DNA of 64,000 bases from NCBI GenBank assembly GCA_902806565.1, contig CADCXA010000058.1, forward strand, positions 404,350 to 468,349. Reading direction: 5' to 3'. The stretch is from Hypoxylon rubiginosum. Its lineage: Eukaryota; Ascomycota; Sordariomycetes; Xylariales; Hypoxylaceae. Position 1 is the stretch's first letter, and the number at the start of each line of letters is the position of its first letter. Positions 8,393 to 56,392 of the stretch are shown here, piece after piece. A program made the translations under genes and the position numbers. Below the pieces are notes generated by a model. The model worked only from the letters and a program-made list of their open reading frames with translations, was not told the origin of the DNA and did no database searches.

Positions 8393-10494
8393 ATGGCTAC
8401 ATCGAGAGCGAAACAGCCCTACTTTGGGCTCAAGGGCAAATGGCTAACCTTCTGGATCACGGTATGTCTATCCTATACCCCTACCCCTTACCCTTACCTA
8501 TAGCCTGGTATCTATCTCTATACACGGCACGACTGACATGGTGGAATATAGTTCGCTTGTGCTACGGACATGACTCTGTTCGGTTATGACCAAGGCGTCT
8601 TCAGTACGTTGCTACTGCAATACCCCTAACATCAACGTCGGTGCTGATATCCTGGCTCTAGGTGGCGTTGTTATTTCAAAGGACTATCTTGATGTCCACA
8701 ATCTTAACGGCCACGAGAACACGAACGTCCTATCTATCATCACGTCGATTTACACCATCGGCTGTTTCTTTGGTGCCATTACGGCCTTTTACATCGGAGA
8801 GGTCATCGGCCGCAAGAAGACTGTCCTCGTCGGTACCGTAATAATGACTATCGGCGCTATTCTCCAAACAAGTTCCTTTAGCGTCCCACACATGATAGTC
8901 GCCCGTATCATCACTGGGTATGTATCACCAGGAACGACTCAACATACACTGCATGACCAATAGGCTAACACGCGAAATAGCATCGGTAACGGAATCAACA
9001 CGGCCACTGCGCCCGTTTGGCAGACGGAAACTTCCAAGGTCCACAACAGAGGAAAGCTTGTCATGCTCGAGATGGGCTTGAACATCTTTGGTTTCTCCTT
9101 GAGCAACTGGGTCAACTACGGAATGTCTTTCGTGGGAGGCTCTATTGGTTGGCGACTCCCTTTGTCTCTCCAGCTCGTGTTCTGTTTGATTCTTTTCACC
9201 ACCGTCCCGTGGCTCCCCGAATCACCTAGGTAAGCAATTACTCACATTGCCCACTCATGCTAGCCCAGTCAACTAACATTGATGTCAGATGGCTGCTTGC
9301 TCATGGACGCGAGACCGAAGCTAGCAAGATCCTAGCGGATTTGGAAGACAAGCCCCTTGACGATCCTTATGTGATAGCTGAGCGGGAAGAAATCATCTAC
9401 GGTATCGAGTATGAGCGTCAGAATGCGATAAATTGGGGAGACCTACTCCGGGGTCGTGGTAAGGCCGGAACCAAGACCATTCGACGATTACTCCTCGGTG
9501 CCGGCACGCAAGCTATGCAGCAGTTTGGTGGTATCAATGGTACGCATGGGAAAGAATACTCACCCCCTCCCGTCATTTGATATGCACATATGCTAACTGG
9601 AGGGTAGTGAGTAACAATTGCCTTGTTCAACCTAGCTACGGTCCCTATACCTATAAGGCAAACCTCCCGACTCACTACAGCAATATTAACGCGAGATAGA
9701 TTATGTCGTACTACCTGCCTACCGTGTTGATTGAATCCGTCAAGCTTGATGACAGCATGGCTCGTCTTATCGCGGCCTGCGCATCGGTCGCATACCTCTT
9801 CGCGGCTCTGGCGGCAGCGCCTCTTGTGGAAAAGTGCGGCCGTCGCATCATGATGATAGTGTCAACGGTGGTCCAATTGCTCTGCTTCTTGCTTGTGACT
9901 ATCTTGCTTTACTTCGCCGAGAAGCCGGGCTACCTTCACCAAGTCGAAGTGGCCGAAGCATCAGTCGTGTGGTTCATCATCTACTACATGGGCTTCGGCT
10001 TGGGAATGCTCGGTGTAAGTCCTGCATGAATTCAATATTACCTAGTGATTAAATTTGCTAACACATGCTCTTATTAGATTCCTTGGCTTTACCCAACCGA
10101 AATCAACTCGCTCCCCATGCGAACCAAGGGCGCCGCTGTTGCGACAATGACAAATTGGATCACCAACTTTGTCGTTGTCGAAATTACCCCTATCGGCATC
10201 CAGACGCTGGGCTGGAAGTTCTACATCATCTGGGTGGTGACCAATGCGCTATTCCTGCCCATCATTTGGCTCTTCTACCCCGAGACGGCCAACCGTACCC
10301 TGGAAGACCTGGACGCGTTCTACCGTGACAACCCGCCGCTAGTCCTCCACCGCGACCGCGACTCTACCTCGGTGCGCCGACCCGAGAGGTTCATCCAAGC
10401 TCAGGGTCGCGATATCGAAGAGGCTGCCGAGAACTTACGGCGGCGCGGCTCTATTATGGTCCACGACGGAGGCGAGAAGTCTGTTAGCGACTAA
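8393..10494 (+). CDS. MFS sugar-porter family transporter
   Basis: Predicted 535 residues. Exons: 8393-8461, 8552-8603, 8662-8917, 8981-9229, 9289-9538, 9700-10014, 10078-10494. All junction phases agree. Sugar-porter hallmarks: FGYDQGVFSG after helix 1, GRKK near residue 90, LPESPRWL before the central loop, QQFGGIN near 290, EKCGRR near 338 and PETANRTLEDLD near 465, closing the second six-helix bundle. It should import a hexose or related carbon source across the plasma membrane; the substrate is not predictable. Four of the five simple introns have CTAAC or CTGAC branch sites. The gap after codon 292 works only as a twin intron (see finding). The start gives a short cytosolic N-terminus, as in relatives. 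Upstream CTGGGG sites suggest glucose repression. Confidence 0.9.
9539..9699 (+). other. spliceosomal twin intron (stwintron, D1,2)
   Basis: Inner intron 9540-9607 (68 nt): donor GTACGC, branch CTAAC at 9593-9597, acceptor TAG. Removing it brings G9539 next to TGAGTAAC at 9608, creating a perfect GTGAGT donor. The outer intron (G9539 plus 9608-9699, 93 nt) ends with branch ATTAAC at 9685-9690 and acceptor TAG. The product joins codon AAT (9536-9538) to ATT ATG TCG, giving the family-typical GGIN-IMSYYLP in frame. One-step removal of 9540-9699 shifts the frame and stops after about eleven codons. Confidence 0.75.
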
Positions 10495-17185: not shown

Positions 17186-20100
17186 TCAATCACCGTTCAA
17201 GCGATATAACTCCTTAAACCTCGTATCCCCTTCCATAAGCGTAACCGGGGCACCGTACTCGAGTAGCTTGCCAGCATCAAGCAGCGCAACTACGTCGTAA
17301 CTGCGCACTACGTGATGTAGCCGGTGCATGACAGCCAGCACAGTGCAGTCTTTGAATTCGGTATCGATGATCTCCTGCATGGTAGACTCGGTTTCGGCAT
17401 CAACACTATTTTGGGTGTATAATCAGCCTCGTATCCGCGGTGCTGGAAAAAATAGGGGGGAAAGGTGGACCGAATACTTACCTACTCATCGCCTCGTCAA
17501 GCACCAATATGCCACCCGTGGTACCCTTCTTCCACTGCCGGACCATGGCCCTGGCAAGGCACAGTAGCTGTCTCTGGCCGACCGACCAGGCAGCGGCATC
17601 GAGCGGGACATCTAGACCTCCCTGCGTGTTGATAGAGTCCCAGAGCCCTACTCTCTCCAGTGCGTGGCGCATCATCCTATCATCGTCTTGTCCTCCTTCG
17701 CTGCTATTGTCTGGATCACTACTGCTACGGCTGGAAGTGGAAAAGGGGTCGATATTGAAGCGCACAGTCCCGGGGATGAAAAATGGGTCCTGCGGAACGA
17801 CGTTGATACGTGTGCGTAGGTCGGCGCGTTTTACGGTGGTTATGTCGACGCCGTCGATCTTGATCTGGCCCTGAGACGACGATTCATCGAGCATCCGTAG
17901 TAGCGCTAGTAGTAGAGAGCTCTTGCCACTCCCGGTACGCCCGCAGATGGCTACGTGTTGGCCGGGCTGAATCGATAGGGAGATGTTCTTCAGTACTGGT
18001 TCCGTGGTGGGTCTATTATCGTGTATATTAGTTAATTTTCGGCCTTTTCACGCTTGTTGGAGGCAATATTGGGCTAGTAGCGTGGCCGTATAGAAGATAC
18101 AGAAAAGGAAAGGGGAGGGAAAAAAAGAAGTAATGAAAGGTGAATTTACCCATATGAAGCAACGACATCAGCCAACTGTAGCGCACCACTACCTGGCCAA
18201 TTCGGTGGTAGCTGGGAGTCTACCCCTGCCCCAACCTCCCGCCCATCTTGTTCTTCGACCTCCGTATCGGCCAAAAAACGCTTGACACGGGCGACAGCAC
18301 CGACACTCGACTCGAGCTTGGTCCAGTTTTGGATGAGGCGGGAGAGGGTCTCGCTGAAGTTCACCACGACTAGCAAGCTAACACCGACGCTGCCCGCGGT
18401 GAAGCTGTCGTGCCACGTTACAACGATGGCCACCAGGACCACGGCTAGTGCGGCCACCAGCAGGTCCAGTACGAACGCGAGCCACTGCTGGATGCAGCTT
18501 TGCAGATACACGGGCCGCTGGGAGTCATCGACTAGCTCGTGGTTGCGGCGGCGGTACTGCGGCTGCCAGCCGAACGCACGGATTGTCGAGCTGCCGGCGT
18601 TCGTCTCGCCGAATTGCGTGTAAAGCGGGGCGCGCGCCTCGATGCCTAGGAGCCGTATCTGTCGTGACGTTTGCAGGTAGAACCGTTGCAGGAAGTAGAC
18701 GGCTACGCCTAGGAAGGGGATCGTCACGCCGAGGTACCGCGAGAAGATGGCAAGGATTACGATCTTGATTCCGAGGGATACAGCGGCTGTCGTGCGAGCG
18801 AGCGGTTAGTGTTTCTCGTCTCAACGCAATTCTTGCTGTGGATTTGATGATTGGGAATACTGACTCGATGTGTAGTTGAACATCACTAAGGGTAGGTCCA
18901 TGTCTACAAGATCCATGTCTTGGCTAAATCTGATCAGGGATAAATTAGTCAACATAGGTCATATAGTGGTTAGAAAGGGGTATTTTCTAGATATTAGCGA
19001 CGTAGGACAGAAAAGCCACTTACCGGTTAAGAAGTTCACCGCTATCCGTCGAAGCAAAGAAGCGGAATGGTGCCCTAGTCGCAATAGTTAATACATCATG
19101 ACACGGTTTGGAATAGCAACGGGATGGTAGGCTTACTTGACCACGGCCCCTAGTAGATCGGCATGAAGGTTGGCGGCTGTGCTCGATATTATGGAGATGA
19201 CCGCGAACCTGCCATCATCTTAGTTAGCTAACGTCCTCTCGCTCAACAAGTTGTCTAGAACTCACCAGGATGCTATGGCGGCAGCGATAACGCCAACAAC
19301 TCCAATCATCGCATAGATTCCCATATACAACCCTACGTCCTTGTTCGGCTCGACTGCATTAGCCGCAGACCACCAATTTACCACGACAGCTACGAGTATA
19401 GTCAATATTACGTCCCAAATCTAAATAATGCAGGGTTTCTTACTAGAAAATTCCATGCAGAACACCCAGAGACTGATGAACCCCATGTATAGACCAACTG
19501 CGAGATATCCCGCATTGGCGATGTAATACTTGTAGACGGTTAGATCCCCATGCTTGCGTCGGAGATCCGTAAGCGATCTATTCGACTCCTCAGCCATATC
19601 GGTCGACGCCCGGGACATTTCGCGGACTAATCCGGTATTTTCGGTTTTAGGGGTCTCGACATTCTCGATATCAGGTTCGGACTGGACGGTAATCCCAAGC
19701 TTGCTGACGTAGCCGTCACCTTGGAGGAGAGTCACAGGGCTTCCTGTTTCTACAATACTGCCGTCCTCGATGACGATGATAGTATCGGCGAGCGCCATGA
19801 TGTTTTCTGTAATGGTTTGGTTAGCAGGACGTGGTGAATGTTTCTACCTTGCTTCGAGAAAACCTACTATTATGCGTGGCTATGACCACTGTTGTCTGGC
19901 GCTGTCTAAGGAGGCCGTCGCGTCCCAGGAGACGTGATGCCACTAGACTCGCCGTGTTGGAATCCATGCTGCTGAATACATCATCAAGAATTACGATTCT
20001 ATGCCTGGCATAAACAGCGCGGGCCAATGCCTATGAAATCCATAAAGCCTCTGGTTAGCGTCTTGTCTCAACTGGTGACTGCTATAAAGAATCAACTCAC

Positions 20101-22742
20101 GACGCGCTGTTTTTGGCCACCGCTCAAGTTCTGGCCCGTACTTCCTACGCTAGTTTGGTCACCTCTCTGTAGTTGTCGTAGGTCGGTGTCGAGCCCGCAT
20201 GCGTATAGGATACTGCTATACCACTTTTTATCGTAAGGCGACACACCAATGATGTTCTGGCGCACTGTTTTGTTCTCAAGCCATGGCTCTTGTGCACAGT
20301 ACGCCATAACCTCGCGAGACCTACTCCCTTGATTTTTATCTCCGGGCGGTAGGCTTGTAGAGATCATTTCGCCCAGTAGGCTATTCAGGAAAGCCGACTT
20401 CCCGCTTCCGACGCGTCCTACAACCGCCGTCACTCCTCCTCGTCGGATATCCACGTCGAGGTCCTTTAGCACAGCCGGCTTATCCCTGGCCCATGCGAAG
20501 CTCTGGTTTCTTAGAGAAATGAGCTGGTCCTCTTTTACGTAAACTGCTTTTCCGCTGCTCTTCGGTGATGCTAGACGCTGAAGACTGATACCTGATTCAC
20601 TACGGGCTGGATCATCATCGTGCATATTAGAGTCTTCCGTATTACGGTTACAGTATTCCTGTACACGCTCAAAGCTTCCAATACTTTGGAAAAGCTGCGG
20701 AAGCGCTTGGATGAAGAGTATTACTGGCGTCGTCAATAGACTGATTAAAGTGATTGAAGTGAAGGCCTTCGCGGCTAGAAGGGACTCGTCCTTCCAGAAG
20801 ATCGCTATCACGACGTATACGGCGAAGGTTACAACAGGGGCGAGATTTAAGGGTGTAAGAGCTAGACACGGTCGTTAGCATCAAGACCAGCCTGGTTCGG
20901 GGGGTGGGGGGATCGGAGTCAACGAACATAGCAGTAATGCCCAGACTAAGAGCTTCCGGTAAACCTTAGATACGTTTATCTCATCCACGCGCAGCTTCTG
21001 GACGACTGTCGACATTACAGGCGAGATACCAAGCATCTTGACGGCCTTCATGTTGCTTAGGAAGCTAGACGTGACCCTGAGTCTCTCCTGAACTCTTTCG
21101 ACCCATCGTACTTGGGCAGCTCGCGCCGCCTTGGATACCCTGTATACAATTGCGATAAATACTAGGCAGTAATAGTACGGTTTAGCAATGTTACTTGTAA
21201 AGTTGTCACGAGGGTAGATGACTTACCGAAAATGAGGACGATAGGAGCGACACAAGCTACGGACATCTGTAGGCCGAGAAGCCAACAGGCAATAGCAATA
21301 TCCACCAGTGAGCTCCATATCTTGTGAAATCTTTGCGCCCCATTAATTATTCTTTCTACGTCCGTACTCATCAGGGCCATCGAGGTGATCTCGCTAGTGT
21401 CGGCCGCTCCCTTATGCAGGGTTCGATCATAGATAAGAGCAATCAGACCACCTCGCACCCTGGTTGTGAACCGGAAGTTTTGGTATTGGTAGATAGAATT
21501 GGAGACCTAGACCAAGCTGATTAGATTTTAGACCAGCCTTAGAAAAGGTGACATTGAGGCCACGGGAACTTTTGCTGTTGACTTACCGCCATACCTAGGT
21601 AGACGAGAGCCCAGGCACCAATCAGACCCTTCCCATAGTTAGAATCAGGGTTTTCAAGACCTACGAACGTCACCGTCGCGTTGACGAGGAAGGGCTGTGC
21701 AAAGGTAAAGCCGGTCAGACAGAGCCGGGGTACAATGGCTGATAAGAGCGAGAGCAGATAGACCCGGAGGCATGCGCGAAGTAGGCTGTGTTTGGCCTGG
21801 GGGTCATCTAGTAGTAATAAAGAGACACATGTAAACAGCTACACTCCGGGAATGATCAAAAGATTCTAGCAGGCGTTACATACATCTGGCCCAAGTTTCC
21901 GTGAGGGCTTTGCCCGTCAGCCGGCTTTCGAGCCCGGCGTCTAGGGGCGGGAGGTCGTTAAGCGCAATGATCCTAGCGTAGCCGGCGCGGAACGTGGCAG
22001 TAAGCCAAGCGAAGCTAGTTCGGCTCCAGATCCCGCTCCTCTGCTCGGGCGCTAGGGCTCTGCCCTTGAAGGGAGGACTCTGATCGTTAATTGCTTCATC
22101 AGAGCTCTGAACTTGACCTGAAGCCGAACTTGCTGTCGCATCTGCCTTCTTTTCAACAGATTCTAGGATCAACGCTGTACCTGTCAAAGTGAATACGAGG
22201 GTAGCTACGGCGGGGACGGAATGACCCTCATTACTACGAGGCAACAATAACGAAAAGGTACGGGTCCGTGCGGTGCCGAGAACGACAAGCACGGAAAGGT
22301 AGAGCCCTAGCAATGTGGAAGGCCGCAGGCGACGCGTGTGGTCCGCGAAAGACAGTACTAGAGCCGCGACGGTTGCAATGGCGCCCAGGATATCGGCTGC
22401 TAGCGAAGCATCCGTAGCGAAGGCTAGGTGCTGGACTCGGAGAGCTAGAAGCGCTAACTGAGCCGCCAGCAAGGCAGTAAGTACAGCGAGTTTAGCCCCC
22501 AAAAGCTTGGAGTAGAGGGGGAAGAGGACGGCGGTACGAGAGGGCGGTTTCCGTCGCAACCGACGAAGCAGCAGCGGCGCAATGCGCGTAGGAAGGAGCG
22601 CTAAGAAGATCGCGGCCGGCAGGCAAGCGAAGAATATGTCCTCGAATTGGAGAGTGAAGTCGAAGGAGCGACAGGTCGGGTCGACGCGGGGTCCAAAGGC
22701 CCGGTCGCTCCCAGACGCGCAGCCATTACTCGTTGTTGCCAT
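17186..22742 (-). CDS. ABC transporter, ABCC (MRP) type
   Basis: 1526 residues, 14 exons. Exons, high to low: 22742-21884, 21807-21587, 21506-21227, 21161-20928, 20861-20101, 20030-19868, 19806-19444, 19389-19266, 19208-19137, 19074-19024, 18929-18865, 18786-18150, 18012-17482, 17405-17186. All phases agree. Layout: N-terminal TMD0 with several helices (residues 30-190), TMD1, NBD1 (Walker A GRVGSGKS about 680, LSGGQKQRV, Walker B ILDDVFSS), linker, TMD2 ending before VASYG, NBD2 (GRTGSGKSS about 1300, WSVGQRQL, LVLDEAMS, H-loop MHRLHH). NBD1 has Asp after Walker B and NBD2 has Glu, the usual ABCC asymmetry with one catalytic site. Expected to export conjugates, drugs or secondary metabolites at the plasma or vacuolar membrane; substrate unknown. 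Donors GTTCGT (exon 4) and GTAGGT (exon 6) are weaker. The 54-nt intron 19443-19390 is required to remove an in-frame TAG. Confidence 0.92.
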
Positions 22743-28932: not shown

Positions 28933-29155
28933 TCTGCCGGATATATGGTCAATTGACCTGTATATAGAATGGTATTTGGTGTTGATGCTGGAATTAGCAC
29001 GTAGAGAGATCTCTTAGAAAATGGGAGCTTGTGAAAGTTTGGAGGGGCAGTCGAGGAATTGCCCCGCAATCGCAAGTCGAGCGCGGGGCAGATTTACAAA
29101 CCCCCCCTTGCCCCCTGCTTAGTGGGCATGTTAGTGGGGTGGTCTGGATAATTCG

Positions 29156-29193
29156 GTACCTTAGCAGCAAAATATGGTTTTAAGAAATGGTTG
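29156..29193 (+). repeat. left inverted repeat of AT block
   Basis: GTACCTTAGCAGCAAAATAT and the following 18 nt match the reverse complement of 38855-38892 at all but about five positions. Four differences are A here versus G in the other copy, the direction expected from RIP; one is T versus G. Confidence 0.6.
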
Positions 29194-32100
29194 TAGAATG
29201 GTATTATAATAAGCTATATAAATACTGTTTATTAGGCATATAACATTACCTGGATAATAATTATTATTTAAATAAAAATAATAATTTAATAATATTTTAT
29301 TATTATATATATAATTAAATTAAAATAATAAAATTATTATAATATAAATAATTATATTTATTATTATATTAAATTTAAATTTAATATTATTTTTTATTAT
29401 ATTTTATAAATTAAAATTAATTTAATATAAATTTTAATATATAATAAATTTAAATTAATTTTAATTTTAAATTAAATAATAATATATATAATAATAAAAA
29501 AATATTAATTATATATTAAATAAAATATTAATAAATAAAATTATTTTAAAATTCTTAAAATATAATATTTATTAAGGTATTTTAAACTTTTTATTTAACT
29601 TTATTAATTTTATTTATAATTATTTAATATTCTATTTTATATAGATTATTTTTATATTAATAATTAAAATTAAATATAGTTTAATTAACTTAATAATTAT
29701 AATTTTAATAATAAATAATTTATTATTTAACTTTTTTAAAATATTTAAATTAATAAGCGGATCTTAAACACTAATATAATATAAAAATATAATAATAATA
29801 AAAATATATTATTCCTTATTAATATTAAATAAAAATATATAATTAATATATATAAAATTATTTAACTTATAAAATTAAATATAGTTGTTTTTATTAAAAA
29901 CAAATTATTTTTTAATATTATTATATATAATAAAATAATTAATATGTTTTTTAAAATTATATAAATATAATTTATTATTTATTAAAATTAAATTTATAAA
30001 CTTATTAAATTTAAATATTAAGTTATTATATTTAAAAATAATTAATATTAAAGTTATAATTTTAATAATAAATTAATTAAAAACTAAAAATAAATATAAT
30101 AAATAAGTTTTTAGTTTTAATAAATAATGAATTTTTACTAAATATAAAATATATAATATATTAAATTTTTTTCGTTAAAATATAATTAATAATAATTAAA
30201 TTAATATATGTTTTATTAATAAATATAATTAACTTTAACTTTATATCCTTTTTTTTAATAATATTAATTAAATTGTTTTAATTTAAATAAAATAAAATAT
30301 TTTTAAATAAATTTAAATATTATTAATATAACTTTTATATTTTAATTATTAATTTTAAATCTTATAAATTAAATATATTTTAAATAATAAATTAAGTGAT
30401 AAATTAAAAGTTAAATTTTATTAATAATATATATTTAATATTAAAATAATTAGTTTTATATATATAAATCTTAAAATATTTATATATAATTACTAATATA
30501 TATATAATATAAAATATATATATTAATATTAATTATTAAGTTATACTTTTTTATAAAATTAAAATAATGGATAATAACATAGATATTTAATTATAATATA
30601 TTATTTAAATATTAAATAAATTATATTAATTTTTTAATTATATTTTTATTAATTAATTTAATAATTACTCCGCTTATTATAACTAAAAAAATATAAGATT
30701 TTAATAATTTAACTATATATATATATAACTAATTAAAAAGTTTTTTTATTTTTTTAATTAAGATTTTTATATTATTATAATTAATAGTTAAAGCTTTAAA
30801 TCTTATAAAAATAATATTATTTTTTATAATTATTATATATGTTTTTATAATAAAATAAACTGGATTATTATTACTATATTTATTTATTTTTCTTATAAAA
30901 TTAATTTTAATATATATAAATTTAAATTAGTTATAAAAAAATATAAAAATAATAATAAATTATATAATATAAGTAAATAAGTTATAATTAAGTAAATAAT
31001 ATTTTAATAATTATAATTATTATATATTAAAAAGGAATAATTAATTATATAATATAAAAACATATAATATTACCATTAAAAATATTAAAATACTATTAAT
31101 AAAAAAAGTATATATTAAGTAAAAAAATCTATTATATTTAAAATATATAAAATTATATAATTATAAAAAAATAAGATTTAATATTAAAATTATAGATTAT
31201 AATATTAATAAAAAGTTTAATATATTTTATTATATACCGTAGGTTTTTTTTTTAATGTTATTAATATAATTTTTTATTATATATTATATTTAAATAATTT
31301 AATAGTAAAATTAGTTATATGTTATAATGTTAAAATTTAAATATAATTAAAAACCGGTTTTAATAAATATAATAAAATAATAATAGTAAAATTTCTAGGT
31401 ATAAAAATTTTTTAATTTATTATTTTTAATTTATTATAATATATTATTAATAAAGTATAATATAAAAATATAAATTAAAGTTTTTTTATTATTAATATTT
31501 ATATTTATATTTTTATTAAAAATCTTAAAAGTATTAAAAGTTTAAATAATATTATTAAAGTTAAATTTATAAGGATTAAAAATTAAAAAAAAGATATTAT
31601 TAAGTTTAAAATAATTTATTATTAAAAAACTAGTTAATATAATATAACTTTTTATTAAAAATTTATATAAATTAAAAAAAACGTTAAATTTATTAATAAA
31701 ATTAAAATATAATAAAAATTTAACAAGTTTTATAAAAGTAAATAAAAGTTTTTAATTTTATTTAAATTTAAATAGATTTTAATTATATATGTTAATTTTA
31801 AGCTTACTATAAATAAGATATATATAATAAAAAAATATAATAATATTTATTTTTATTATAATAAATTTAATATTAATTATTTAGTTTAAAATAAATATAC
31901 GTTAAATATAATAAGCTTAATATTTTTAATTTTAAGCTAGAAATTTAAACTTATTATATTTTAACTAAGTGGTATTTTTTTTAGTTTAATTTTTAATTTA
32001 AAGTGCCAGGTTTTTAAATATTTTATTAAACTTATAATTATAATAAATATTTAATAAAAAATAAATATTTATTTTAAGGATATATATTATATTTAATATA

Positions 32101-35100
32101 AATATAAATTTATTTAACTTTTATAAAAAGTTTATAATAATATAAATATTATTTATTTATTTATTATTATTATTAAATAATAAGTACTTTTAAATTTATA
32201 AAATAAGTATATTTTTATTATATTTTATATAAAAGTTAATATATATATTTTATTTAAAACTATAAATATATTTAATATAAAATTTTAAGATATTATTTAT
32301 ATTATTTATAGCTTTATAATAAAAGTAAAATAAAATAATATAATAATAATAAATTTAGTTACTAAGAAATATAATTATTTTATTTTTAAAATAAACTTTT
32401 TTTAAATAAAGGTATTATTTACTAGATATTTAAATTAATTTAAACTAATAATATATATAATATAACTTTATAAAATAATTAATAAATATAATAAAATTAT
32501 TATATATATTTTTATTAATATTAAATAATAAAAAAGTTTCAATAAATATAAAAGAGTTAAAAAAAATAAACTTTATAATAATTAAAAACTTACCTTTTAT
32601 TTAAATATTTTTTTATTATAATTTTTTTTAAGTTTTAGTTTTATATTAAATTATTTTAATAGATAGTTTTTTTATATTTAATAAAATATTAATTTAACGT
32701 ATATTTAATAAAAATAAATATTTATAAAACTAAGATTTTAATATTACTAATTAATTTAAAAAGTTTAAAATATTATAAATCGGTTTATTAAAATTATTTT
32801 AAAAAAATTAAAGGGTTTTTTAAAAAAATAATTATTTTTAATAATTAAAGTTAATAAATTTAGTAAATAAAGTAAATGTTTTTTTAAATTTTAAAGTTTT
32901 AATTTTTTAATTTTAATATATTTTAATTAAATAAGAAATATTATATAAACTATTTTTACTAATATATTTATTTAGATATTTATTAATATAAAAGTTTATA
33001 ATTAAGTTTATATTAAAATAATTATTAAAAAGTTAAACAGTAAAAAATAAGTTAAATAATAATATAAAAAAGTTATAAAAAGTAGTAGTAAATTTAGTTT
33101 TAATAATATTATTTTTTTTTTTCTTTTTATTAAAAAATAATATAATTATAAAAGTGTTATTATTATAAATAGCTTTTTTATATATAATAATATTAATAAT
33201 ATTATTTAAATTTAATATTAAATATATTATAAAATTAAAGTTATTATTAAAATTATTATAATATATTAAATTTAAATTAAAAATTATTATTATATATATA
33301 TTATAAATTAGAATTTATTACTTATTTATTAATAAAATTTACTTTTATTTTTTTAATTAATATAAATTTAATTACTTTTAACGTTATTTTTATTATAACT
33401 TTTTATTTTAATTATTATATTATTATTAATATAATTAATAATTATTTTATAATTATAATAAAAATTTAATATTTATAAGATTTTTTTATTATTAAATAAA
33501 AAAGATATATCACTTTTATTATTAATTAAAAAAGATTTATTTTTTTTAATATAATATAAATTATTTTCTAGGAAAAATAAATATTTAGTAAAATTTAATT
33601 AACTAGTTAAATTAATAATTAATTAGTTATAACTTTTTTTAAAAAATAAAAAATAAAACTATTTATTTAATAACTTTTAGTTTTATAAATTATTTTTTTT
33701 TCCATGTATTTTATATATAATATAAACGTGTTATAAATATATTTTAAAAAAAAAAAATTAAAAATATTAAAAATATTAAATAAAAAAAAATAAGTATTTA
33801 AACGTTAATGTTATTTTCTAGGAAAAAATATTAATAGTATAAATATATTATAAAATATTATAAAAAAAAAAAGGAAAAAATAAAAAAAAGAAAATAAATA
33901 TTTAAATATTAATATAATTATTATTAAAAAAGGGGATAAAATTAAAAAATATTATATATAATATTATAAAAAATTCTTTTATAATATTATATGTTTATTT
34001 AAACTAGATAATTTATTTAATTTAAACTAAATTATTAAAATAATTAAATAACATTAAAAAATATATTTTATTTATAAGGTAAATTAATATAAAAGGTGTT
34101 ATAATATATGGTAGCTTTTTTTTAAAACTTTAAATTTTATATTATTTTATTTATATTAATTTTTCTTTAGATAATTTATTTTAAAAATTTTATTATTTTA
34201 TTTAATATTAGTATTAATAATTTATTATAATATTTAAACATTATAATAATTATTTTATATTATTAAAAACTAGTTTTTATATTTATTATAAGCTAAAAAT
34301 AAATTTTATTATTAATTTATTATTTTATTTATTTAATATTTTAATTTTAAATATAGTTTTTTATTAAATTTAAATATAAAAAACTTAGTTTTAAATAACT
34401 TATTTTTATTATTATAAAAAAATAAACTATAATTAATTTTAGTAAATATATTTTATATTTTAAATAAAAGTTATTTTTATTTATAATTATTTAATTTTTA
34501 GCTTTTAATAAAAAATCTAAAAAAATTAATATAAAAAAAAAAGGTTAAATATTATTATAAAGTTATATATAAATAAATTTCTTTTTTTAATTTAAATTAA
34601 TATTATAATAATATTTAACTTTAGTAATAACTTTTAATATTTATAAAAAAAGTATATAAATAAAAGTTATTATTATAATAATTAAAAAATAATTTAAATT
34701 AAGTTTTATTATAATAATAAATTACGTTGGTATTTTTTAACTTTTAATAATTTTAAGGTTATTAGTTAAATTATCTAGAATTAATACTTTAAATTTAATT
34801 TATTATTAGAATAATTTAAGTGGTTATATAATTATATTATAATGTTATTTTAAAATTTAAAGTATTAGTTTTTATTTAAAAATTTTTATATAAATTTATT
34901 GGTTTTAATATATAAAATATACTAATATTTATAAAAGGTATATTTTTAATTTTATTAATAATTACTTGGATAAAATAAAAAAATAAAAGATGGATTTTAA
35001 TTTATTTTATTAATAAATTAAAAGTAAACTAAATTTAAATATATTTAAATATATTTATAATTTTTAAATTATAACTTTTATTAATTACTAGAAAATATTT

Positions 35101-35752
35101 ATTAAAAAAAGTTAATTTCTTTTTTAATATTTTTATTATATATTTTATATATTTAATAATAAATTATATTAACTTGTTAAAATAAAAGCGGTTTTAAATT
35201 TAGATATTAAATGGTTTATTAAATAATTAAAAAATAAGTTAAAATAAGTTAAAAATAATAATAAATATATTTTTATATATTTTTTATTTAATAAAACTTA
35301 TTAATTTAGTAAGTTTTAAATTATTAAATTAAAAAGCTTTTTATAGATTTTATTTTAAAATATTAATTAAGATAAATTAATTAGTAAAAAATAAACTAAT
35401 TAATAATAAGCTTAGTTTTTCCAGTTTTTTTAATTTAATAATTTACTTTTATTTTTATTATTTAATATTTTATTATTTAGTATATATATTAATATATTAT
35501 AAAGTAATTTATTTTAAAAGTAAAGTTTTATAATATTTATTAAAAAAATTATAAAAGATAAATTAAATAAAAATAATATTAATATAGGAAAATCTATTAG
35601 TAATAAGTTTATTAATAAAAAGCTTTTTAATAATAAATTTATTAATTTTTTTTTAAATAATTTATTAAAAGGTGGTTTATTTATAAATAAGTTATTAAAA
35701 AGTGAGTTATATAAAAATAAGTTTATTTAAAATAAATTTAAATATATGTTTA

Positions 35753-35850
35753 TTTTTAAGTTTAATTTTAAGTTTAATTATAAACTTAGTTTTAAACTTA
35801 ATTTTAAATTTAATTTTAAGCTTAATTTTAAATTTAATTTTAAACTTAAT
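35753..35850. repeat. 12-bp AT tandem repeats
   Basis: Degenerate repeats of TTTAATTTTAAG-like units within the RIP block, with G or C marking each unit boundary. Possibly RIP-degraded minisatellite or coding repeat. Confidence 0.4.
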
Positions 35851-38251
35851 AATATTAAATATAAATTAATTATATTTATAGTTATTTAAGTTAAATAAAA
35901 TATTTATTTTTATAATAATATTTTTTTATTTAGTTAAGTTATTATATAATTTATTTAACTATAAAAAAGGTTAGTTTATAAAATTAAAAAAAGGTAAATT
36001 TAAATTAATTAAATATATAAATTTTAATTATAACTTTTTTAAAATATTATTTATTATAATAATTATAAAAATAATATTTTAATTAATTTATTAATATAAT
36101 ATTATAAATTATTAAAATATTAATTAATATATTAATTTTAAAAAATAGTAATAACAAATTTATTTATAGTTTTTAAATAATTTTTAAATATTAATATATA
36201 TTGTTTTTTTTTTTTTTTTTTTTCTTTTTTTCTTTTATCTCTTTTTTATTTTTAAAATAAAACTTTCTTATTTTTATATTTATCTTATTTAAAAAATAAT
36301 ATAATTTACAAGATAATTTTAATAAATATTATAAGTTTATAATACTAATAATTTAATTTTAAATAATTATAATTTATATATTTTAATAATATATAATATA
36401 ATATAATAAAATAAATAGTGTTTATATTTAAATTATAAATAATATAAAATATTTATTTAATTAAAAAGTTTAAAAAATTAAAATAACTTTAATTTATATT
36501 ATTATATTATATTATTTTATTTTTATTAACTTTAATTTTAATTATATATAATAATTATATTTTTATTTTATTTTTAAAAATAAATATATATTATATTTAA
36601 TCCTATATTTATATTTAAAATATAATTAAAATTTAATTTTAAGCTTATTAAACTTTTTATTAAAATAAAATATAATTATTTATAAAATATTATAAAAGTT
36701 TATTATTTAAATTATTTTTTACCGCTACTTTTTTTAAACTTTATTATAATTAATTTAAATAGTATTTATTATAATATATTATATTATATTTATTATATAA
36801 TTATTAAAAACATATAATATAAAATTAAAAAATATAAGTTAATATTTACCAGGTTGTTTTTTTCTTATTTTATTAATTTATTTAATACTTAATTAATATT
36901 TAATAATAATATTATTTTTTTAAGATATTATTATTTTTATATCCTTTTTTATATATAAAATTAAACTTTTAAATTCCTTTTTATTAATTTTATTATTAAT
37001 TATATATATAGGTTTTTTTTATTTAATTATTTTTAAATTTATCGATTAAATATTCCTTAATATTTTATTAAAATTATAAGTAATATTAAAAAAAAAAAAA
37101 ATTTTATTTACTACTATTAATGTTTTTATTATATTTAATTTATATAAAAAGTTTTATTATATTATTAAAATATATAACTTATTTAAAAAAATATATATTA
37201 TATTTAAATTTATTAATAATTAGTTATTAAATAATAATATAAAAAGTTATTATATTTATATTTAAATAAATTTAATTTATAATTACTTTAAAAATAAAAT
37301 ATAATTTTATAAAAATCTTTATTTTTATTATAATTAAAATAAACTAATCTTATTTTTAAAAATTAATAATAATTAGTAAAATTAATATTACTTAGTTATA
37401 TATATTTTTAACTTTTTAAATAAAATTAAATATAATAATATAAAGATTATTTTTTTATATTAAAATATATTATTACTATTAATTTATTATATTTTTATAA
37501 AGTTTTTTTTTATTTAATTTAATTAAATTATATTTATTAATTACGTTATTAAATTATTTATTAACATTAATTTTAAATAAATAATAAAATATACCATTTT
37601 AATTATTAAAATTAACAGTGTAAAACAATTATATAAAAAAAAGAAAATTTATTTTAATAAGGTTATTTAGTTATTTTTTAAGGTAACTAATACTAGTTAT
37701 TAATTTTTTATTAAAAAAAATAAAATTATAATTAAGTTAATAATAATATTAATAATTTTTTTATTTATAATAAGCGTTAAATAATTTACTTATTATATAT
37801 TAAATAAATAAAATAAAATATAAATAATTATTTTATTTATAAATATAATAAATTAATATATTCGATATATATAAAATAATTAAAATAATAAAAAAATAAT
37901 AATAATTTTAACGGTTTTAATTTTAATTATAATATTAATAAACATTTTTTAAATAATAATTTTAATTATTTTAAAAAGTATAAATAGCTGGTTAAAAAAT
38001 TTTAATTTTAATTATATTTTAATTATTTAAATATTAATATAAAGTTTATATTATTTTAATAATATAATATATTTAATTTAATTAACTTAATTATAAGTTT
38101 AATTAATAATATTAATTAAAGTTTTAATTATAATAATAATTTTAATTATATTTTATTAAAACTTAATATATTTAATAATATTTTTATAAAAGTTTTTTAT
38201 AGTTTTTATATATATTTATTATATAATTTATTTAAATAAAAGTTTTTATTA

Positions 38252-38421
38252 AATATAATAATAATTTAAAAATATAATAATAAATTAAAAAAATAATAAC
38301 AAATTAAAAATATAATAATAATTTAAAAATATAATAATAAATTAAAAATATAATAATAAATTAAAAAAATAATAATAAGTTAAAAATATAATAATAAATT
38401 AAAAATATAATAATAAATTAA
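38252..38421. repeat. 19-bp AT tandem repeats
   Basis: About eight to nine copies of an AAATTAAAAATATAATAAT-like unit, with two variants (TATAATAAT or AATAATAA in the middle). Low complexity, no coding content. Confidence 0.45.
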
Positions 38422-38854
38422 ACTTATAAATAATAATAATAAAAATTAATTTAAATTAAAATATAATTAAAAAAATATTAAAAATTTATAAAATATTTAT
38501 TTAAATAATTATAAATTATAATATATTTTTTTTTAATTTATTTATTTTTTATTATAAAATATTTTAAAATATATTAATAATATATTATTATTTATAAAAT
38601 AATTATATTTTTTATATATATAATTATAATATTTTAATTATTAATATATTTAGTTTAAATAATTAAATATAAAGTTATAAAATTTAAGTTATAAATATAA
38701 ATAATTATATTTTAAATATAAATAATTAATAATATTAATATTATTTTAAGTTATTATATTTCCCCATCTAAATTAAGTGGATAGGTATTTTTAAGCTAAT
38801 AATGGTTATTATAAAAAAAATAAATTTAAAATATAAAATAATTTTTATGTGTTA

Positions 38855-38892
38855 TAACCATTTCTCAAAACCACCTTTTGCCGCTAAGGTAC
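38855..38892 (-). repeat. right inverted repeat of AT block
   Basis: Reverse complement of 29156-29193 with about five differences. This copy keeps G where the left copy has A, so it is the less mutated end. It is also read as the last codons of a small minus-strand open frame (39061-38852); the left copy encodes nearly the same residues (TLAAK.GF.KWL then stop). An inverted duplication of a gene tail is therefore an alternative to a transposon terminus. Confidence 0.55.
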
Positions 38893-39092
38893 GAAGTACA
38901 ACACCCAACTGATCTCGACAATGACCGGATCCGACAATGACAAATATCTCATGCCTCCCTTGCATGCTGCAGGTTGTTGATCCCTCGGGGAGTTTTATGA
39001 CAGTATCATGCACGTCACGAGAATCATTTTCAATTACAATATTATGGCCGGTTTGATTCATTATTTCTTAGTACTCATGTTGTTGTATTAGG

Positions 39093-48372: not shown

Positions 48373-49537
48373 ATGTTGACGAGCCACGAAAGAGCCTCGG
48401 CTAGCACAATAGACGATACCTAACAGTGTAGTCAAGAAGGGAGTTTACAGGCTGATCAGGGCTATGCTTAGTTGCCCTTTTGTATGAATAGAGATTTGAG
48501 ACTGCCTGTGCTTATGTCACACTAAAGGATTCACATAAGGGGTGGATTGCGTGTGTATGACGCCTTCTAGATCAAATAAAACTAAAAACAACCACACCAC
48601 ACTTACCAAAACCTTTGGTACAATAGATATATTATCAATCAAAAGCATATAATAGCTAGAGGCTTAAGATATTGGTATTAATCGAGTTAATTGAATTAAT
48701 TCAAAGTATGTCTAATTACAAACGATACAGTTTCAATCAGAGCTTTCCTTAGGTTAGCACGTGATTAACTCAGATATCTAATCATGTGACTAGCTCTGCC
48801 TTAATCACCCAATTCCCCGTGACAATAGGTCTGAGATCCGTCACCTCTGCATGATTCACCAGCGATGGCATTTCTTACACAACAAGAGCTGTGACACTTG
48901 GAGTTTGATGTGTAGATAAACAGTTGGCATCATTGCTAAGAGCCCTGTTTTTTTTCCCAGGTATCGAGTACTTACAATGAGAGCGCGGGACCAGGGTGCT
49001 CAATCCGCCGCCACATTAGAAGATGATTTGTCTTTGCCGTTGATACCTGATCTCCGAATTTGTTTGCCGATAACAGAGTATGCACTGGTACAGTGAGTAG
49101 GTATCAAACCTGAATCATTCCCTCGCCCATCTCCTTCTTCGTGCGTGGGCCGGTGCTGGTGCTGCTTTAACCTGTCAATTGGGTCCCAAAACACATAAGC
49201 TTCCGGAGCCTCGATACGCGCTCGGAGTATCTAGCCGCCAACAGGTAGCCAAGACAGGCCTCCGCAAAGCTTACAAGTCACAATGCATGAGCCAAAAACG
49301 TGAGTACCTACCTAAGGTATCCAATCAACAATTTCCTGCATTTGACAACACGATGCGCTGGCCAGGGGCATTTTCATGGCTGTGCAAGAGCAGCATACAG
49401 TGGCCTAGGATAAAGTCGGCTTTCTTTCACCGTTAGTGTTTCTCTCTTGCATGTCTCTATATGTCTACGTTACTGCTCGTCTCTTTCAACCCTCAACATT
49501 CTTACCTGTGACCGTCTTGAAGTCAACGCAAGTCAAA
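48373..49537. other. intergenic upstream of metzincin gene
   Basis: No gene recognised. The last 100 nt are pyrimidine-rich (TCTCTCTTGCATGTCTC), fitting a leader. An upstream extension of the metzincin frame exists from 49436 but is not favoured. Confidence 0.4.
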
Positions 49538-50830
49538 ATGCCACATGGATTTCGGATCGGGTTCTTCGACTCGAGCGACTCATCGTCGGCATCATCGTCT
49601 TCTGATTCTGATAGCGACGATGACGCGACTTTAGTTGCTAGTACTAGAAGGTCTAGCCACTCGTCAAGTCGACGAAGTAGCAGACATCAGTCCACAAACA
49701 CTTCCAGACAGAAGCACACCAGTACCACATCGGGCAAGAGATCCCGACCGGCGGATGGGGCGACCACGAGAGACGACAGGCTCTGGCCTCGCGACAAGCG
49801 CTACTTGGCAGTACGCTTTCTGGACGGCAGCTCGGATGAGAGACAGCTGGTCGAGAGCCTCGTTGTAAATCATTACCATGCGATTGCCATGCGCATCCGG
49901 TTCCGGTTCCTCAAGTTTAGCGACGCCACCAGCCCCTCAGATATCCGTATTACTTTCACCACCTCGGGCTGCTCGTCAAGCTATCTCGGCCGCGACAACG
50001 AAAAGATTGCAAAGAATAGTCATACTATGAAACTGAACATGAACCAGACCAGCCGTAGCAAGGTGCAAGCTGATGTGCTGCACGAATTCGGCCACGCGCT
50101 GGGTCTTATTCACGAGCCGAAACACCCAGGCTGCAAGCTCAATTTCAACCGTACCGCGCTCAAGAATCGGTATGGGTACGATGACAAGTTCATCAATAAG
50201 AATTATGGGGTAGGAAGTGTCATTGGGGCCAGGACTACGCGTTATGATATTTACTCCATCATGCACTATCCGGTCGAGCAGGGAGACACCGTGAGCCTTG
50301 TCACACGTATTCCGCTCAATACCGTCTTGTCGGATGGTGACAAGCAGCTTCTCATGTCTCTATATCCTGACGATCCCGAGCCTAAGCCCAAGCCCAAGCC
50401 CAGGGTGTCGGTGCCTGTGACTGTCGTCAGACCCAAGACCACCAGTACCACGTCAGCAACGACGACTCTTATCGAGACACCACGACCTAAGACCAAAAAG
50501 CAGTCGCAGCCAGTGTATCTATCAGGAAGCGGTAACAGTGTTGTGGAAGGCGGCTATATTGTGATCAGCGGGAGCGGCAATGTTGTCATCAACGGCGACA
50601 GCGAGGTTGTCATGTCTGGATCTGGAAACGTTATTCTCAACGGAAATGGAACTGTGCGTAAGAGCGGCTGTGGGTGTCTCATTGTCAACGGCGACTGTGT
50701 GCTCGAGGCCAGCGGCAGCGGCACTGTGCGCGTACGCGGCAGTGGCACGGCGAAGGTCTTTGGCAGCGGGTCTGTCCGATTCTTAGGGAAGTGCTCGGGG
50801 ACTGTAAGCGGAAGTGGTACTCTTAAATAA
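49538..50830 (+). CDS. metzincin-type zinc protease with C-terminal Gly-Ser beta-repeats
   Basis: 430 residues in one exon from the ATG at 49538 (CAAAATG context, MPHGFRIGFFDSS). Regions: residues 12-40 Ser/Asp-rich and acidic; 45-85 Ser/Arg/Lys-rich; catalytic domain about 90-290 with HEFGHALGLIHE (H-E-x2-H-x2-G-x2-H zinc site plus the following Glu) and Met-turn SIMHYP, i.e. a metzincin close to astacin/matrixin types; a PKPKPKP linker; then about 110 residues of short repeats centred on SGSGN/SGSGT alternating with VVINGD- or VILNGN-like strands, suggesting a small beta-helix. A frame-compatible upstream ATG at 49436 would add 34 hydrophobic residues resembling a weak signal sequence; I prefer the later start. 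The stop TAA lies exactly where the AT-rich block begins, so the repeat tail may be truncated. Substrate unknown. Confidence 0.8.
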   Translation: MPHGFRIGFFDSSDSSSASSSSDSDSDDDATLVASTRRSSHSSSRRSSRHQSTNTSRQKHTSTTSGKRSRPADGATTRDDRLWPRDKRYLAVRFLDGSSDERQLVESLVVNHYHAIAMRIRFRFLKFSDATSPSDIRITFTTSGCSSSYLGRDNEKIAKNSHTMKLNMNQTSRSKVQADVLHEFGHALGLIHEPKHPGCKLNFNRTALKNRYGYDDKFINKNYGVGSVIGARTTRYDIYSIMHYPVEQGDTVSLVTRIPLNTVLSDGDKQLLMSLYPDDPEPKPKPKPRVSVPVTVVRPKTTSTTSATTTLIETPRPKTKKQSQPVYLSGSGNSVVEGGYIVISGSGNVVINGDSEVVMSGSGNVILNGNGTVRKSGCGCLIVNGDCVLEASGSGTVRVRGSGTAKVFGSGSVRFLGKCSGTVSGSGTLK

Positions 50831-53036
50831 TATTGTTAGATATAAAACTAAGTTTTTTTTTTTAATTACAAGGCTATTGTTAACTTAGGGAGGTAAATTA
50901 ATATTATAGTTATAAAAATCTAACTTTTTTTACTACATTTTAAAATCGGTTGATATTTACGGTTAACTGTTTATATATTTTAATTAAAATCGAAAAATTA
51001 AATTTAAAAAATACTATAAAAAAAAAAGCGTTATATAACCATATATATATTATATTAAAAAAATACTTTATAAATAAAAAAATAAAATTATTATATAAAT
51101 TAATATTTATTATTATTATTAATTATAATTTCTTATTTAAAACTTTTTTAATATTTTTAATTATTATTAAATAAAGTTTTAATTATTATAAAAAAAAAAC
51201 CTATTAATTTTAAGCTTTTTAAAAATAATATTATTATTTAGTTTTTTATAAGCTTTATTAATAATAATATTTTAATTAAATTTAAAATAAAATTCTATTA
51301 AAAACTTATTAAAAAAACTTTTATTTATATATTTAAATAATAAAAACTTTAAAAATAAACTTATATATAATATTTTAAAACGTTATTAAAAATAAAAAAA
51401 CAAATTTTAATTTTATATTTTAAATTTTATATTTTTAATTTTAAGTTGTTAGTAATATTACACTAAAAAAAATTTAATATAACTTAAAAATAATTTTAAA
51501 AAATATAATTAAAATATAATTTTAAATATTATTAATAAATATTTACTAATAAATAATAATAAATAAATTTTTTATAAAACGTTATAATAAAAAAATTCTT
51601 TAAATTTAAACATTTTAATAAACTTAACTAATAATATATTTATAATAATTTAATAAATAAAAATAAAAACTTTTTTTTTTAGTTTATTTAAAAATTATTA
51701 TTATTATATAAACCTTTTTTATATATTAATATATAATAAAAAAGCAATAATAAAAGTTTATAAAAATTTTTTTTTTAATATAATTATTTATTATTAATAA
51801 TATTTATAAAAAGAAAAAAGCGAATTTATTTATAATAAACTAAATTAAATTTAATATATTAATAATTATAATAAGTTTTTTTAATAAGGAATTTATATAT
51901 ATATAAAAATAAATATATTTTTAAAATATTTAATTTAATATTATATTAGTTAATTTAAAAATATAATAATTTTTATTTTAATTTAATATTTTTATATAAT
52001 ATATATTTTAAGTTATATATTTTATATAATTTAAATAAATAAAAATAAAAAAATACCTTTATTTTTTATTACTTATTAAACTTTTATATAAGTTATATAT
52101 ATTAATATAAATAAGTTTATTATAAGGTTTAATAATTATATTTATTATAATTATAATATAAATAATATTTAAATTAAAAAGTAATAAATATAATTATAAA
52201 CTTTTTATTTATTATATTAAAAAATATATTTATATTTAAATATAAAAAAAATATAATTAAATATTAATATGTTTTTAAATTTTATTTATATAATTAAAAA
52301 ATTAAAAGTTTTAAATATTATATAACCTTATTTTTAAAATTATTTTTCTTATAATATATATATTAGTTATATAAAAAATAATTAAAAATTATATTTTATT
52401 TTAAAATTATTATAAGATTTATTTTTAATATAAAATAAATAATATATTAAAATATTTAATTAAAAATTATTATTATTTTAATTTAAATATCGTTAAATAA
52501 TACGGTTTTATTATTAATATTAATATTTTTATTAATATTAAAATAATAATTACTAGTAATAATATTAATAAATATTTTTTTAAAAACATTTTATTATAAT
52601 ATAAAAACTTTTTTATAAGTGTTAAGTTAAATTATAAAATAAAAAATAATTATAAAAAACTATTTATTAATACTTATTTTAAGTTTTAAAAAATAATTTA
52701 AATAAAACTAAATAATAAAAATTATTTTAACTTATTATTAATTTTAAAACCTTCGATAAATAATTTAATAAAAGTTATATAAAAATTAATATAGCTTTTA
52801 AAATAAAATCTTTTAAAAGATTTAACGGTAGTTTTAAAAAAATTAAAAAAGGATAAATAAAAAAAAAAAAATTATAATATATTTAAATAAATATTTAAGT
52901 ACTTAAAAAATTTATAAATAAAACTTATTTATTTATAAATAACTATAAGGTTATATATTAAATTAACTATAAATTAAAAAAACTTAATATTAAAATTATT
53001 ATAAATATAAAAACGTTTTACTTTTTATAAAACTTA

Positions 53037-53160
53037 TATTTAACCTTAATTAAATTTATATTTAATTTTAATTAAACCTATATTTAACTTTAATTAAACT
53101 TATATTTAACTTTAATTAAACTTATACTTAACTTTTATATTTAACTTTTATTAAACTTAT
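53037..53160. repeat. 22-bp AT tandem repeats
   Basis: About four to five copies of TATATTTAACTTTAATTAAA-like units. The ATATTTAA core is the reverse complement of the unit at 53463-53571. Confidence 0.4.
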
Positions 53161-53462
53161 TTAAATATTTTAATAAAAATATAATATTTATAACATTTAT
53201 AATTTTTTAAAACTTTTATAACCACTTAGAATTTTTAAACTTATTAATTATTAATTTTATTAATTCTTAATATTTATAGTTATTTAAAACATTTAAAACT
53301 TATTAAATATTAATAAACTAATAATACTATTAATAATATATTATAATATAAAAAATTAATTTAAAAAATAATATAATAATTAATTTTAAAGTTTAACACA
53401 CTAATAAATTTATAAATAAATATAATATATTTTATTTTTATTTATTTATTTAAAATAAATAA

Positions 53463-53571
53463 AAATATAAATTAAATATAAATTAAATATAAGTTAAATA
53501 TAAGTTAAATATAAATTAAATATAGGTTAAATATAAATTAAATATAAATTAAATATAAATTAAATATAAAT
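53463..53571. repeat. 11-bp AT tandem repeats
   Basis: About ten copies of AAATATAAATT with AAGTT and AGGTT variants. Seen directly; probably RIP-degraded minisatellite. Confidence 0.5.
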
Positions 53572-56275
53572 GGTTATTATTATTAATTTGTTATTTTTTT
53601 TTAAACTTTTATATTATTAAATTTTAAATTTTATAAATAAATATTAATAAATTTAAATAAAAATTAAAATAAAAAAAACTAATATTAATTTATAATTATT
53701 ATAATAATATATAAATTTATATTTAATAAAAATTTAATATATATTTAATAAAAAATAAATAAAAATTAAATAAATATTAAATAAAAGTTATATAAATAAT
53801 TTTAATATTTTCCTTAATTTTATAAAAAATATTTACCCTTATTAAAAGTATTTTAAATGTTTATTTTTACTTAATTTTTAATTATATACTTTTTATTATA
53901 AAATTTTAATAAACTAATCCTTTTTTTTTTAAATTATTATTAAACAGTTACACCTTATTTTAATTATTATATAATATTTATTAAACTATCTTTTTTATTA
54001 TTATTAAATTTATTATTTTTAATAATCCCACCTTTTATATTATTAATAACTTTAACCGAAAAAATATTTATAAAATAATTATTATTATTATTATTTTTAA
54101 TTTAATTATTTATAACGTTATTTAAAAACTTTAATAAAAATAATAAATTTTTATTTAAACTTTTATTATTACATTTTAATTTATTATAAAATTTATTAAG
54201 CTTATTAAAATTAACTGATTCTTAAAATAATAATAATAATAAATTAATAAAATTATTATTAACTTTAAATTTATTATTATTTAGTTAATAGTTATTAAAC
54301 AACATTTTAATATAAATTAAAACTAGGTTTTATAAATAAAAAAAAAGGGTTTATTATATAAAAAAAATTAAAAATATTACTAGATTTAAATATATAAAAA
54401 TTATAATTAATTAATATCTTTAACTAGTTTATTAACTTAACTAAATTAACCTTTAATAAACCATTACTTAATATTTATTAAACCTAAATATAAAATACTA
54501 AAGTTTAAATAAATAACATTATAATTTTTTTTATTTTTATTTTTTTTTTATCGTTTTTAAAATACCAGGCTAATTAACCTTTTTTTATTTTATAACTAAC
54601 TAATATACCGCCTTTAATTTATTTATATAAATTATTATAAAATTTTATAAAAAATTAAACTTATTTATTAATAAAATTACTTTTTTTAATAAATTATAAA
54701 GTTAATATTTTATTATTTAACAAATTAACTTATAAAATTATAAATTAATAAAGCGGTAAACTTATACTTTTATTTTATATTAATTTATAATTAAGTTAAT
54801 TTTTATAATCTTAAAATTAACTAAGTTATATTTAAATTTATAATAATTAATTTAATTAAATTTAAACCTATTAATTAAAAATAATATTAATTATAATTAA
54901 ATATAAGTTTAAAATAATAAAAAATAATAAAATATATATTTATTTTAATTTATTAATAAACTCCGTTTCTTATTAAACTTTTATAAATATAAATTAATAT
55001 ATTATACTATAAAATTAAATTAATATAACATTTTTTAATAATATAACTTAATATTTTATATATTTTTAATAATAACTTTTTATAAATTAATAAATCTTAT
55101 AATAAAAAACTTAATCACCTTAATATAAAAATTATATTAATATTACTAATATTAATATATTATTATAAATAAAATTTATTAAAACTAATTATTATATATA
55201 TATTTTTATTTTTTTTAAAATAAACTTTGTATATAATATTAAATTTAAATATAATTTTAATTATATATTTAATATTAATAAATTATTAATAAATATTAAT
55301 AAATATAAATTTAATATATATATTATTATTAAACTTAAAAACTAAAATATAAAAGTTTAATAAAACTATAATTTTTAATATATTTATTATTATTTTAATA
55401 TAATTTTAAACATATTATCGTTTTAAACCTTAATTATATTATAAAACTAACAATTATTTTTAATATGTTTTATTTATTTTAAATAAAAAGTTAATTAATA
55501 TAAAATAAAAATTATATTATAAACTCGTTTAAAAAAACCTAATTATTAAAATTCTAATTAAAAATTAAATTTAATTTTATTAATTATAAATAACAATTAA
55601 ATAAAAACTTAATATAAACTAAATATAAATTTAATATAAGTTAAATATAAATTAAATAATAACTAAATAACAGTTTAATAATAAGGTAAAATATTATAAA
55701 AATATTTAAAAACAAAATATAAATTTTAAATAATTAAAATAACTATAACGTTTAATAAATAAATTAATATTATTTTTATAATTTATTATCATTTATTTAC
55801 TTACTAAAAACAAACGTTATATTAAAGTTTTTTTATAAAATATTCTTTAAATTAAACTTATTAATAATAATTTAATTATTAATATTAATAGTTTTTATAT
55901 TTTATATATATATATAATATTAAAAAGGTTATTAATATTAGTTTTATAAATTTAACTATTAAAAAATATAATTATAAAATTAAAAAATTTAAAGATTAAA
56001 ATATTTTTATTATAATAAAATTTTTTATTATATATAATATATAGGTTATTATTTACTTGTTATTTAATTATTATAAAATATATATATATATTTAACTTTA
56101 ATATATATTTTCTATATTTTTATTTCTTTAATATATTTATATATATTAACTTTTATATTTATTTTTTTTATAAATTACTTTATTATAAAAATAATGTTAT
56201 TTATAGTTAAAATATATTATAAAAACTTCGAAATAAAAAATATAATTTTATAAATATATATTTATTTAAATAATT

Positions 56276-56392
56276 TATATTTAACTTATACTTAATTTTA
56301 ATATTTAACTTATATTTAACCTATATTTAGTTTATATTTAGTTTATATTTAATTTATACTTAACTTATATTTAACTTATATTTAATTTAAAT
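56276..56392. repeat. 11-bp AT tandem repeats, inverted unit
   Basis: About ten copies of a TTATATTTAAC-like unit, the reverse complement of the 53463-53571 unit, 2.7 kb away. Confidence 0.5.

Follow-up and report, generated by a model that had tools for sequence, protein, structure and literature searches.

A very probable [D1,2] spliceosomal twin intron in a sugar-porter gene of Hypoxylon rubiginosum

We analysed a stretch of 64,000 nt (the window) that is part of a 48.3-Mb assembly of Hypoxylon rubiginosum in 70 contigs. On its plus strand lies a sugar-porter gene, the spliced product of which matches Pfam Sugar_tr (PF00083) with 338.5 bits over residues 23–477. The interval between exons 5 and 6 of this gene is best read as a spliceosomal twin intron (stwintron), in which an internal intron interrupts the donor of an external one. 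According to the exon coordinates the other five introns measure 58–90 nt; the remainder of the gene has an open reading frame and GT and AG splice sites. The features are as follows:

8393..10494, plus strand: sugar-porter gene, 7 exons, 535 aa (gene model; Pfam Sugar_tr)
8393-8461, 8552-8603, 8662-8917, 8981-9229, 9289-9538, 9700-10014, 10078-10494, plus strand: exons
9539..9699, plus strand: putative [D1,2] stwintron, 161 nt, phase 0, between AAT (Asn of GGIN) and ATT (Ile) (model A match, frame, enumeration)
9539..9539, plus strand: G1 of the split donor of the putative external intron
9540..9607, plus strand: putative internal intron, 68 nt, with donor GTACGC (9540-9545), branch GCTAAC (9592-9597) and acceptor TAG (9605-9607)
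9608..9699, plus strand: remainder of the putative external intron, 93 nt together with G9539, with TGAGT, ATTAAC branch (9685-9690) and TAG acceptor (9697-9699)

Elsewhere in the window, positions 29001-39000 and 51001-64000 contain blocks of 5–14% G+C (mostly 5–9%) without any N and with sharp borders to sequence of normal composition, the last of which extends to the contig end. Apart from the edges of the first block their (CA+TG)/(AC+GT) ratio is 0.07–0.30, and the blocks look like the product of extreme, saturated repeat-induced mutation. Immediately next to an AT-rich block, a 464-codon ORF (49436-50830, plus strand) encodes an astacin (M12A) peptidase domain; its tail looks rich in Ser and Gly by eye. 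At 18146-20811 on the minus strand, ORFs encode the membrane and ATPase domains of an ABC transporter and are probably exons of one gene.

Read through G9539, exon 5 is in phase 1 before GTACGC, and exon 6 opens at 9700 in phase 0. Removal of a single intron 9540-9699 gives GGIN-DYVVLPAYRVD-stop, a +1 frameshift with eleven codons before the stop, and the resulting product scores 211.1 bits against Sugar_tr versus 338.5 for the stwintron product. The external donor is split between its first and second nucleotide (G9539/GTACGC...TAG/TGAGT), and removal of 9540-9607 joins G9539 to TGAGT as GTGAGT, a donor for the external intron. With both introns removed the product reads QQFGGIN-IMSYYLPT and the frame stays open to the gene end; the GGIN-IMSYY stretch belongs to the seventh-helix motif of a sugar porter. 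If the external intron is retained, its TAG acceptor becomes an in-frame stop (frame read by eye). In the proposed course of events the spliceosome would first excise the internal intron, the reconstituted GTGAGT would then serve as donor, and a second round would excise G9539 together with 9608-9699, joining AAT to ATT. Direct use of the outer sites 9540/9699 would leave G9539 in the message and lead to the frameshift and early stop.

These results bear out the original prediction, the coordinates of which are correct throughout on direct reading of the sequence. The gene model reproduces the phase conflict between exons 5 and 6, with a single intron that stops after about eleven codons, as well as the rescue of the frame by a second intron, giving GGIN-IMSYYLPT where the conserved GGIN-(I/V)MSYYLP had been expected. 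The complete inner intron with its CTAAC branch and TAG, whose removal creates GTGAGT, was confirmed by direct reading and by a motif match. The assignment to the D1,2 type agrees with everything that can be tested on the sequence, namely model A, frame, enumeration of splice models and family alignment.

Model A is a formula published for finding [D1,2] stwintrons (PMC9024468, section 2.1). On both strands of the 64 kb it yielded one match, exactly 9539-9699, and the U2 donor, branch and acceptor of both introns lie at the published distances. When G+GTACGC (7 nt) at the start and TAG at the end were kept and everything between was dinucleotide-shuffled, 19 of 20,000 shuffles satisfied model A; with the external branch tail fixed as well, 116 of 20,000 did. 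Since 30 shuffles of window positions 1-28000 contained a mean of 0.27 matches each, and since in Hypoxylon sp. CO27-5 no more than 90 of the 282 candidates from model A proved authentic (PMC9024468, section 3.1), the motif is not decisive on its own. It is frame, protein and position together that are decisive here. We consider it very probable that 9539-9699 is a [D1,2] spliceosomal twin intron, spliced in two successive steps. Sequence elements, frame and agreement with the protein family are shown directly; which splicing step comes first, and that both are actually used, we infer from them.

The mature junction agrees with related genes, as judged from protein families and paralogues. Sugar transport proteins 10 and 6, the best solved relatives, align across it without a gap, and four paralogues in the same genome (L004, L010, L014, L023) are intronless at the site and likewise place three residues between the Asn and the aromatic pair, again with no gap. 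In a fifth paralogue (L006, G000:C41, near 2164-2230) an intervening stretch, which looks like an ordinary intron, begins about 7 nt downstream of the stwintron position. Scans of viral and prokaryote contigs returned no relative.

We also ran model A on 62 loci of the same genome, the window's own place being covered by seven overlapping loci. Seven other loci gave matches. Those at L037 and L044 were supported by the frame as they stood, and that at L045 (the same place as L064) only after a nearer acceptor was chosen; the matches at L035, L038 and L050 were not supported by the frame, and L031 ends 13 nt past its match. Genome-wide, the half-motif of branch plus junction was not enriched (CTAAC form 346 versus 360 in the control, CTGAC form 275 versus 336). 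A fuller nested-junction pattern, composed of G, internal donor, branch, acceptor and the remainder of the external donor, was found at 64 sites versus 16 for the reversed pattern used as control, an excess in favour of the stwintron reading. We inspected 23 of the 64 sites (numbers 1–20 and the final 3 of the list), of which seven lack an external branch and acceptor inside the limits applied. Four are clear stwintrons (L063 with ankyrin repeats, L064 of the SLAC1 family, L076 and L084), a site being clear, as we judge it, if neither flank contains a stop and the score far exceeds that of the single-intron reading. The other twelve are ambiguous or favour one intron: the single-intron reading scores higher in L067, L068, L071, L079 and L081, and the stwintron reading in L065, L069, L073, L075, L078, L082 and L085, but in these stops occur, the margin is small or the acceptor is unlikely. 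By eye, L081 (G000:C24:289333-289411) looks like part of another sugar-porter gene. The lack of half-motif enrichment, the yield of only four clear cases among 23 inspected sites, the seven sites that lack external elements and the five with a better single-intron score count against the stwintron reading.

Two more clear stwintrons lie outside the 23 sites, L044 from the half-motif list and L086 among the 64, and the frame thus supports six further stwintrons (L044, L063, L064, L076, L084, L086). In four of the six a family alignment crosses the junction, namely Pfam OPT in L044, SLAC1 in L064 and Sugar_tr in L086, and DNA polymerase kappa in L076. For the L076 candidate (L076:1501-1696) the alignment to a solved polymerase kappa, PDB 1t94, presumably the human enzyme, spans the junction. 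The L044 candidate (L044:1415-1624) in an OPT oligopeptide transporter has 468 open codons before and 210 after the junction, and none after it if a single intron is assumed. The best ankyrin stretch of L063 stops just short of the junction, and no Pfam family matched L084. L086 (867-1051; G000:C55:519116-519300) is itself a sugar porter with a nested intron of 185 nt in phase 1 that joins NLFFYF to GTTIFQ; its single-intron reading shifts the frame to GNDHLPVC. It shares 26% identity with the window's porter over the longer piece, and its stwintron lies 16 nt downstream of the window's in the alignment, so these would be two sugar-porter stwintrons at different positions. Together with L006 they mark three neighbouring intron positions in the sugar-porter family. 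Frame, and in four cases also family alignment, support additional [D1,2] stwintrons in this genome.

The alternative that survives best is that the assembly is wrong by one base, or the gene a frameshifted pseudogene, and that 9540-9699 is an ordinary 160-nt intron whose nested signals arose by chance. Were a base wrongly inserted or lost at the exon 5/6 boundary, one intron would suffice to account for the frame, and motif searches are prone to false positives, as the 90 authentic cases among 282 candidates illustrate (Hypoxylon sp. CO27-5, PMC9024468). We nevertheless think this quite improbable: elsewhere the gene has an open frame and GT and AG splice sites, just 19 in 20,000 shuffled interiors fit the nested pattern, 160 nt is long against the 58–90 nt of the gene's other introns where 68 and 93 nt are ordinary, and other frame-supported stwintrons exist in the same genome.

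A second alternative, two introns in succession around a micro-exon, or a single intron with an unusual donor (e.g. 9572 GTCATT to 9699), was weighed by enumeration. One-intron models of 42–260 nt with GT or GC donors at 9440-9689 and AG acceptors at 9540-9799 include 12 that are frame-open, none of which uses any of 24 listed donors. Only one preserves GGIN as well as IMSYY, with 11 extra residues and a Sugar_tr score of 325.4 instead of 338.5 bits. Two-intron models with GT donors at 9520-9689 and AG acceptors at 9540-9759 include 37 that are frame-open; they lose GGIN or IMSYY or insert residues in between, and none places GGIN directly before IMSYY. The nearest carries two extra residues and depends on the unlisted donor GTCCCT. 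Ten nested models with a listed external donor are frame-open, and only 9540/9607/9699 retains GGIN and IMSYY. Within the enumerated ranges, then, all other frame-open models damage GGIN/IMSYY, insert residues or use an unlisted donor, and in spite of the 37 and 12 formally open models we regard this alternative as scarcely credible. A single non-canonical GG-AG intron 9539-9699 removed in one step would give the same mature message, but is extremely improbable, as it accounts for neither the complete internal intron nor the GTGAGT donor, and GG donors are very rare.

A twin intron at this site would have one further feature to accommodate, a stem predicted by folding over its internal splice sites:

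9604..9612, plus strand: GTAGTGAGT, internal acceptor and external donor, left arm of a predicted perfect 9-bp stem (folding)
9670..9678, plus strand: ACTCACTAC, right arm of the predicted 9-bp stem (folding)

The predicted pairing probability over 9605-9612 is 0.66–1.0 in the isolated intron and 0.75–1.0 with exon flanks, and pairing of these sites could hinder the first step, which speaks against the stwintron reading. A complement of at least 9 bases over the junction occurred in 7 of 1000 shuffles. The overall RNA fold of the stwintron is unremarkable (z -1.28; 22 of 200 shuffles as good). In the stwintrons L063, L064, L076, L084 and L086 we found no complement of at least 4 bases over the junction (L044 was left out owing to a pattern mismatch), and the stem is therefore not a general feature; it may be the one unusual feature of the stwintron at 9539-9699. 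Section 3.8 of PMC9024468 reports that internal splice elements could mask one another in a predicted consensus structure but that splicing still proceeds mainly in two steps; in nine conserved stwintrons tested there, the optimal structure proved not to be conserved. One could imagine a structure-gated splicing switch, in which a closed stem would hide the internal sites, so that the distal sites would be joined and the frameshifted message passed to decay, and an open stem would permit two-step splicing and production of the porter. Because of the stem and fold statistics and these published structure findings we give such a switch only a slim chance; if true, transporter dosage would be set by RNA folding or a stem-opening factor. 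The stem lets the published idea of masking and mis-splicing be tested at one locus.

The stwintron described here has the same split of the external donor after the first G as the uniquely occurring [D1,2] stwintrons reported for Hypoxylon sp. CO27-5 (PMC9024468), agrees with their model A in the motifs of donor, branch and acceptor and in the spacing of these, and would likewise give a +1 frameshift on splicing at the outer sites. Those stwintrons are RNA-supported, whereas the one in the window is known from its sequence. It is also of the same type as the [D1,2] stwintron in another gene, lipS of Aspergillus nidulans and A. niger, which is 109 nt long in A. niger with external donor GUGAGU and is reported as present across three classes and confirmed by cDNA (PMC5639578). 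The sister stwintrons of Hypoxylaceae and Xylariaceae share the [D1,2] architecture but are described as similar copies within one genome (PMC12403724, PMC8469720). The 161-nt stwintron, compared with its own genome at E≤10 (very common words skipped), returned only itself, and is therefore not a sister stwintron.

Oligopeptide transporter and AzgA-family transporter genes are named in the stwintron literature. In the main texts searched we found no sugar-porter stwintron, and supplements or other papers on stwintrons may list one; the main text of PMC9024468 does not mention sugar, transporter, permease, hexose or MFS. We regard the stwintron at 9539-9699, on the elements, frame and protein match described, as a sound new example, in a sugar porter, of an uncommon intron type that is already known. 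The gene would probably be misread by automatic annotation, either as truncated or with a shortened exon. With several more candidate stwintrons, one of them in a second, distant sugar porter, Hypoxylon rubiginosum may offer material on the origin of nested introns.
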